Positions 45,390 to 47,984 of a stretch of 64,000 nt of DNA are shown here, piece by piece. Location of the stretch: contig JAFZZK010000036.1 in assembly GCA_017615795.1 (NCBI GenBank), positions 54,247-118,246 of the forward strand, in the 5' to 3' direction. The notes beneath the pieces are model-generated. The model saw nothing but the letters and a program-made list of their open reading frames with translations. It was not told where the DNA came from and ran no database searches. This DNA comes from Bacteroidales bacterium (lineage in GTDB: Bacteria > Bacteroidota > Bacteroidia > Bacteroidales > WCHB1-69). A program made the position numbers and the translations under genes. Numbering within the stretch: position 1 is the first letter of the stretch; each line of letters starts with the position of its first letter.

Positions 45390-47984
45390 ATGACTTCTGT
45401 AGAAATTCGCGATGCTTTTTTGCGCTTTTTTGAATCCAAGGCGCACCATATCGTTCCCTCCGCCCCCATGGTCATCAAGAATGACCCCACCCTGATGTTC
45501 ACCAACGCCGGCATGAACCAGTTCAAGGACATTTTCCTCGGCAACAGCAAGGCCGAACATCCGCGCGTGGCCGACTCCCAAAAGTGCCTCCGAGTATCCG
45601 GCAAGCACAACGACCTCGAAGAGGTGGGGCGTGACACGTACCATCACACCATGTTCGAGATGCTCGGCAACTGGTCGTTCGGCGACTACTTCAAAAAATA
45701 GGCCATCGCCTACGCCTGGGAATTCCTCACCGAGGTGATGAAACTCGACAAGGACCGCCTTTATGCCACCGTGTTCCAAGGCGACGAAAAGGACGGCACC
45801 ACCTTCGACCAGGAGGCATACGATTTCTGGAAAGCATACCTGCCCGAGGAGCGCATCCTCAAGGGCAACAAGAAGGACAACTTCTGGGAAATGGGCGACA
45901 CCGGTCCCTGCGGGCCGTGCTCCGAAATCCACATTGACCTGCGCGACGATACCGAGCGCGCCCAAGTGCCCGGCCGCGACCTCGTCAACAAGGACAATCC
46001 CCTCGTCATAGAAATCTGGAACCTTGTCTTCATGCAGTTCAACCGCATCGCATCGGGCGAGTTGAAACCCCTGGCCAACAAGCATGTGGATACGGGCATG
46101 GGCTTCGAACGCCTTTGCATGGCCGTGCAGAACAAGAAGTCAAACTACGACACCGACGTGTTCCAGCCCATCATCCAAAAAATCGCCGACAAGTGCGGTA
46201 TTGCTTACGGTGCCCGTCACGACAGCGATGTAGCCTTGCGTGTGGTAGCCGACCATCTGCGCGCCGTCACCTTCGCCATCGCCGACGGCCAACTGCCCTC
46301 CAACACGGGAGCCGGCTACGTCATCCGCCGCATCCTGCGCCGCGCCGTGCGATACGGATTCACCTTCCTCGGCTTCAAGGAACCCTTCATCACCACCCTC
46401 GTCCCCGACCTCGTGGCGCAAATGGGACACCAATTCCCTGAACTCAAGGCCCAACAGACCCTTGTCGAGAAAGTGGTCCGCGAAGAGGAGTCCTCCTTCC
46501 TCAAGACTCTCGATTCCGGCATCACCAAGTTCGAAAACTACTGTGCCAAACTACAGGGCACCGTTGTGGATGGCGACTTCGCCTTCGAGTTGTTCGACAC
46601 ATACGGCTTTCCCATCGACCTGACGCAGCTCATCGCCTCCGAAAAGAACCTCACGGTCGATATGGAGGGCTTCCAGCGTGGACTGCAACAACAGAAGGAG
46701 CGTTCCCGCAAGGACGCCGCCGTCAACACCGACGACTGGGTGGAACTCATCGCCCAGGACACGCCCACCCGCTTCTTGGGATACCACCAGCTGGAATGTG
46801 AATGCCGCATCGTCAAATACCGCAGCGTCACCGCCAAGAACAAGACCTTCTTCCAGATTGTGCTTGACCAGACCCCCTTCTACGCCGAATCGGGCGGACA
46901 GGTGGGCGACACCGGCACGCTTGACAGCAACTCCGAGTCAGTGGCCATCTACAACACCACCAAGGAGAACAACCTCACCATACACTTCACCAACAAACTG
47001 CCCGCCGACCCATCCGCCGTGTTCATTGCCAAGGTGGATGCCGACAAGCGGCAGCGCACTGCCAACAACCATTCGGCCACGCACCTGTTGGATCACGCCT
47101 TGCGCCATGTCCTCGGCACGCATGTGGAGCAGAAAGGCTCGTTGGTCACTGCCGAACGCCTGCGTTTCGACTTCTCCCACTTCTCCAAGCTCACCGACGA
47201 GGAGATTGTCAAGGTTGAGCGCATGGTGAACGAGTTGATACGCAAAAACTTGCCGCTACAGGAGCATGTGGACGTCCCCATCGAGGAGGCGCGCGCCAAA
47301 GGTGCCATCGCGCTCTTCGGCGAGAAATACGGCAATCTCGTGCGCGTCATCCAGTTTGGTGATGCCGTGGAGCTTTGCGGCGGCACGCATACCTCTGCCA
47401 CAGGCAACATCGGATTTTTCAAGATTGTCTCCGAAGGTGCCATCGCCGCCGGCGTGCGACGCATCGAAGCCGTCACCGGCACAGCCGCCGAGGACATCCT
47501 CTACGACTGCCAGGAGCAATTACGGAAGGGCAAGGAGATGCTCAACACCTCCAACCTGCTGCAGGCCATCCAAAAGCTGAGCGACGACAACCTCCAGTAT
47601 CGCCACAAGGTCGAGGAGTTCGAAAAGCAGCAGACCGTCGCGTTCTGCCAGGAATTAGCCAAGGAGGCCACGACCGTCAACGGAGTGCAGCTTTTGAGCA
47701 AGGTCACGACCTTGGCTCCCGACATCCTGCGGCAGGCCGCCTACAACCTGCGGGGCGAGGCCAACCGTGTGATCGTGCTGGGCAGTGTCTTCGAGGGCAA
47801 GCCCAACTTGGTAGTGGCGCTCAGTGACGATCTGGCGGGCAAGTACAATGCGGCACAGATGGTGCGTGCCGCGGGCAAGCACATCCAAGGCGGCGGCGGC
47901 GGACAACCCACGCTGTCCATGGCCGGAGGTAAAAACCCTGACGGTGTGCAAGATGCCGTGAATAAAGTTGTGAAAATGCTTTGA
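45390..47984 (+). pseudogene. alaS: Alanyl-tRNA synthetase interrupted by an in-frame UAG
   Basis: Charges tRNA-Ala; normally essential. The reading is collinear with AlaRS over about 865 codons, but codon 104 is TAG (45699-45701), at FGDYFKK*AIAYAWEF, where relatives commonly have Glu; one base change from GAG would produce it. The frame is the same on both sides, so this is not a frameshift. Everything else is intact: class II motifs ([36 protein letters not shown]), the editing-site HSATH and CGGTH zinc motifs, and the Gly-rich C-Ala end. A product begun at the nearest downstream GTG/ATG (45735) would lack motifs 1 and 2. Possible causes are a base-call or assembly error, suppression, or a real lesion with a second copy elsewhere. 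The -7 box TATTTTTG is at 45361-45368. Confidence 0.9.

Follow-up and report, generated by a model that had tools for sequence, protein, structure and literature searches.

A lone in-frame TAG in the alanyl-tRNA synthetase gene of a Bacteroidales draft genome is probably a single-base consensus error

Introduction

In the portion of their study drawn on here, Belinky et al., 2021 (PMC7918605) make the case that in-frame stop codons are widespread in constrained bacterial genes and frequently read through, and the stops treated in that portion are common to at least two species. Cooley and Wright, 2024 (PMC11017572), in the text used here, attribute many internal stops in bacterial assemblies to errors associated with the platform, the coverage and the assembler, and an excerpt of PMC5994075 links the G to T (C to A) type of error to 8-oxoguanine or guanine oxidation. 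As regards the genetic code, the relevant passage of Shulgina and Eddy (PMC8629427) states that the bacterial code changes known at its writing all reassign UGA.

Here we analyze an alaS gene that is interrupted by an in-frame TAG. The gene lies in a stretch of 64,000 nucleotides (hereafter the window) that forms the final 64 kb of contig C17 in a draft genome of 2,037,700 bases, 51 contigs and 86.99% completeness, and its protein finds its best named matches in drafts of uncultured Bacteroidales, including ones from the faeces of red deer and horse, the closest match being at 78%. Judged from sequence alone, the case is like the spurious pseudogenes in the cited text of Cooley and Wright, 2024 (PMC11017572) in that a lone internal stop interrupts a single-copy gene that is otherwise constrained, in a draft that is fragmented. 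It is also like the stops in the cited portion of Belinky et al., 2021 (PMC7918605) in showing low dN/dS around the in-frame TAG, but differs from them in that the window TAG is present in one genome only.

Results

The alaS frame is interrupted by a single codon

The alaS gene (alanine--tRNA ligase; 45390..47984, + strand) was identified by translation and profile matches, and has 864 codons before its terminal TGA, or 865 with it. The sole internal stop is the TAG at codon 104 (45699..45701, +), and the lesion is confined to this one codon with no indel, no frameshift and no further internal stop. Upstream of the TAG, the front piece (45390..45698, +) has 103 codons that code for the start of the catalytic domain and match PF01411 positions 1-100 (E 1.7e-51), and its best solved relatives, 3hxz and 1riq among them, are chains of alanyl-tRNA synthetase. 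Downstream, the rear piece (45702..47981, +) has 760 codons coding for the remainder of the catalytic domain (PF01411 102-533, E 1.1e-143 in the profile search), the tRNA_SAD editing part and DHHA1, and by itself covers positions 97-847 of the 847 in the TIGR00344 alaS profile, scoring 763 bits (cut-off 457). Both pieces pass the PF01411 cut-off and so belong to the family, although as assembled the frame is not uninterrupted. Since the profile and the frame pick up past the TAG without a gap, a chance juxtaposition is ruled out. The window gene is thus like a bacterial alanyl-tRNA synthetase (TIGR00344/PF01411) in its abutting profile coverage on the two sides of the stop and in its editing and DHHA1 parts, and differs from it by the single in-frame TAG. 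An initial annotation of this DNA, made from the letters alone, had described an AlaRS-like open frame on both sides of the TAG, and the translation together with the PF01411 and TIGR00344 matches confirms that description. Its placing of motifs 1 and 2 before the TAG and motif 3 after it is plausible in view of AlaRS structure.

Codon 104 is an acidic residue in the relatives read at this site

A search with the rear part of the gene covered 60 genomes including the window's own, and gave matches in 57 of these, among them 33 of 35 from the same genus; all of the relatives belong to species other than that of the window. The site is Glu in all 33 same-genus relatives that gave a match (29 loci and four more), with GAG as the codon in 24 and GAA in five of the 29 loci. 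Among 80 wider Bacteroidota loci, whose alignments contain no stop, 79 cover the site and have either Glu (68) or Asp (11), while the 80th lacks it. The window TAG thus stands at a Glu codon of the genus and a Glu/Asp codon of the phylum, and it is shared by 0/33 same-genus relatives and 0/79 wider loci, so that it is not a stop shared between species of the kind described above. An order-wide PF01411 scan of 393 genomes, 378 of them with a match, also had the window genome as the only one with a stop among the 150 matches listed. A G to T substitution in the first position of the Glu codon (C to A on the complementary strand), directly after a run of six A's, would account for the TAG.

The interrupted gene remains constrained

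Relative to its two nearest relatives, the window alaS has dN/dS values of 0.052 (G027) and 0.071 (G015), as compared with 0.080-0.097 among three pairs of relatives. Comparison with the more distant L005 and L007 gave 0.092 and 0.057, respectively, and L006 gave no computable value. At 501 positions that are invariant in the genus, as defined on 28 other full-length sequences (L022 was too short and was omitted), the window alaS departs at three, one of which is the stop itself, and the relatives depart at zero to six. Thus dN/dS and invariant residues gave no sign of a pseudogene in the form of relaxed constraint or further lesions, and by these two measures alaS is not in decay. This absence of decay around the stop fits a single-base error, and equally a mutation so recent that no further traces have accumulated. 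Given the read-through argument in the cited portion of Belinky et al., 2021 (PMC7918605), constraint by itself does not exclude a real stop.

There are signs in the sequence of an allele exchange of alaS within the genus. The gene is 89.3% identical to its counterpart on G027:C66, which is the highest value of 23 genes (median 79.5%) in a genome that is otherwise the more distant, and 85.6% identical to that on G015:C49, which is 8th lowest of 59 genes (median 90.9%) in a genome that is otherwise the nearest. A 150-base tract (46728-46877) is 99.3% identical to G015. As regards gene order, alaS of G027:C66 is on the opposite side of the block at 41358-44649, whereas G015 has the order of the window with the same neighbours upstream of alaS. 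Directly upstream of the window alaS, 44655-45290 matches the O6-methylguanine-DNA methyltransferase / Ada C-terminal family.

UAG functions as a stop codon in this genome

The RF1 gene (prfA) of this draft matches its profile (496 bits; cut-off 423) and has an open, stop-free frame of 360 amino acids, so that neither profile match nor frame gives any indication of RF1 loss or alteration. All 36 tRNA loci found with Rfam were also called as tRNAs by ARAGORN. A search for amber-suppressor tRNAs, proposed in the initial annotation, found no CUA anticodon among these 36 in the 87%-complete draft. The set lacks tRNA-Trp, tRNA-His and tRNA-Ile and is therefore incomplete. A tRNA-Leu with the anticodon 'tag' (L056) was considered as a suppressor and rejected, as this anticodon reads CUA codons.

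TAG is also in regular use at gene ends. The called genes of the window number 42 and end in TAG in 12 cases; the two alaS pieces are counted among them (the front piece ends in TAG and the rear piece in TGA), and without both the figure is 11 of 40. The 82 coding-scored genes of C17 end in TAA (48), TAG (18) or TGA (16). Specific examples named in the initial annotation were nrdG and a 552-aa gene, and TAG does terminate both the 552-aa gene at 31673-33331 and a 158-aa gene at 57164-57640, the latter being taken to be the putative nrdG on the basis of its CxxC sequence.

Internal stops were then compared between coding-scored gene sets, disregarding stops among the 25 residues at the start and the 10 at the end of each gene. 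Of 74 genes from G015, 61 have a C17 counterpart and two were flagged, namely alaS and one at residue 25 that is probably an effect of start choice; 50 genes from G027 gave 20 counterparts with alaS as the sole flag. In the reverse direction two of 61 C17 genes were flagged in G015 (a split match, and a low-scoring ORF with TAG) and none of 22 in G027. These coding-scored sets replaced an ORF-by-ORF comparison without gene choice, the flags of which (56/179 and 69/187) were taken to be mostly antisense ORFs. Genome-wide, the matched stretches of 26 ABC-transporter and 13 translation-GTPase matches contain no stop. One of four class I synthetase matches, on contig C45, has a TAA and was considered as a second broken synthetase, but this TAA is 5' of the ATG of a frame, presumably MetRS-like, that is cut by the contig end. 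Finally, a noisy scan of 278 kb for stops directly continued by a coding-like frame gave 58 flags over the three stops, with TAG (13/53) ranking between TAA (22/151) and TGA (23/76), so that this noisy test does not set TAG apart from TGA.

The TAG-ending genes, the intact RF1 and the lack of other convincing internal stops support the view, already taken in the initial annotation, that UAG still means stop here. Recoding of UAG as an amino acid was rejected on the basis of the intact RF1, the 11/40 TAG ends, the 278-kb scan and the finding that alaS has the sole internal TAG among 61 genes. Thus the codon-104 TAG is most likely not a new reading of the genetic code.

One alaS copy was found in the draft, and alaS is broken in two other same-genus drafts

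The whole 87%-complete draft has a single PF01411 match and no second alaS, which extends to the draft what had been claimed for the window. Nor was a second full alaS seen in any of the 33 matching same-genus relatives; the additional hits in G004 and G032 span ~130 residues of the editing part only, and that in G009 is the other half of a frameshifted gene.

When the whole gene was read in these 33 relatives, 31 were intact and two (G009 and G013) were broken, so that with the window's own gene three of 34 same-genus alaS genes are broken, each differently. In G009 (G009:C35:4500-7600, L171) ~43 bases are missing, which leaves residues 1-163 and 178-862 in different frames; identity to the window gene is 90% in the front and 73% in the rear, and the whole looks like a chimeric join of two sources. 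In G013 (G013:C96, L022) residues 1-86 are absent and AT-rich unrelated sequence takes their place before ~base 367, so that the gene begins at residue 87 and retains the Glu site; this looks like a false assembly join. In the wider set 78 of 80 loci have a whole alaS, and the other two start at a contig end.

Discussion

None of the relatives read has the stop at codon 104, the gene that carries it is normally constrained and what was examined contains no sign of recoding. Our best reading of these results is that the living organism has an intact alaS and that the TAG reflects one wrong base in the draft consensus, an explanation that we regard as likely. A miscall or a low-coverage assembly error would have hit the first base of the Glu codon right after the A run, and the cell would make full-length AlaRS normally with UAG as stop. 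This explanation is supported by the presence of only one lesion in 864 codons, at a site that is Glu/Asp in the relatives, together with the low dN/dS and the clean state of other genes. It is further supported by the incompleteness of the draft and by the two of 33 relatives in which alaS is broken by apparent assembly trouble. There are also points against it. The surrounding assembly is otherwise clean, which indicates a low error rate and leaves room for a real mutation; the window lesion affects one base, whereas G009 and G013 are broken at apparent joins; and a base in an assembled consensus is usually backed by more than one read.

The next reading in rank, which we consider unlikely, is that the TAG is genuine, a nonsense mutation carried by one strain or a fraction of the sampled population and picked up by the consensus, its carriers dying, rare or briefly rescued. 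A real TAG would have to be of very recent origin, and clean surrounding sequence with one substitution and no other decay is what such an event would leave. Drafts from mixed samples also merge strains, which would allow a minor variant to enter the consensus. However, the stop was not found in any relative read, all of these being of other species, and AlaRS is essential, which argues that TAG carriers would be too rare to dominate a consensus. We therefore infer a wrong base rather than a genuine very recent mutation.

It is more doubtful still that the window gene is a decaying or redundant copy, with a working alaS in the missing ~13% of the genome. The draft is incomplete, as the three absent tRNAs indicate, and the unusual nearness of alaS to G027, together with its lesser nearness to G015, hints at allele exchange. 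Nevertheless, no second full copy was seen in the 33 same-genus relatives that matched, the upstream neighbours are as in G015 and dN/dS is not relaxed.

We give a somewhat lower, and very small, probability to a real and lasting stop, with the complete AlaRS produced through UAG read-through or with the help of an amber-suppressor tRNA, either native or from a co-resident phage. Continued constraint on the gene is congruent with this, such bacterial cases are argued for in the cited portion of PMC7918605, and papers on phage suppressor tRNAs and on stop reassignment in gut phages exist. Against this are the intact RF1, the lack of a CUA anticodon among the 36 tRNAs of an incomplete genome, a TAG continuation that is not above that of TGA in the noisy 278-kb scan, the lack of an internal TAG in the other genes compared (61) and a stop that is not shared with any relative read.

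Weakest of all, and scarcely credible, is that the stop is tolerated, either by low-level UAG read-through that sets the dose or by two AlaRS chains, one of 103 residues and one restarted at GTG ATG (codons 116-117; 45735..45740, +), that join as an enzyme. A restart there is conceivable, but the ATG of this nearest candidate restart is an ordinary Met codon conserved in 29/29 relatives and so has not arisen as a start codon, and the front of the catalytic domain would have to act as a separate chain.

The initial annotation had listed an error, a suppressor or read-through case and a dead copy as the options. This list was right, but the weight it gave to the stop is not supported, as the TAG was seen in one draft only, at a site that is otherwise invariably acidic, in a gene with no sign of decay.

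Relatives, constraint, the release factor, tRNAs and genes of the same contig settle most of this question without reads, and the case serves as a caution that recoding should not be concluded from a lone in-frame stop, even where a draft genome shows it in an essential gene. Were the stop tolerated or the enzyme made as two chains, a nonsense codon would have newly divided an essential synthetase, and if the stop were real and fixed, alaS of this organism would be a natural essential synthetase maintained across an amber codon.
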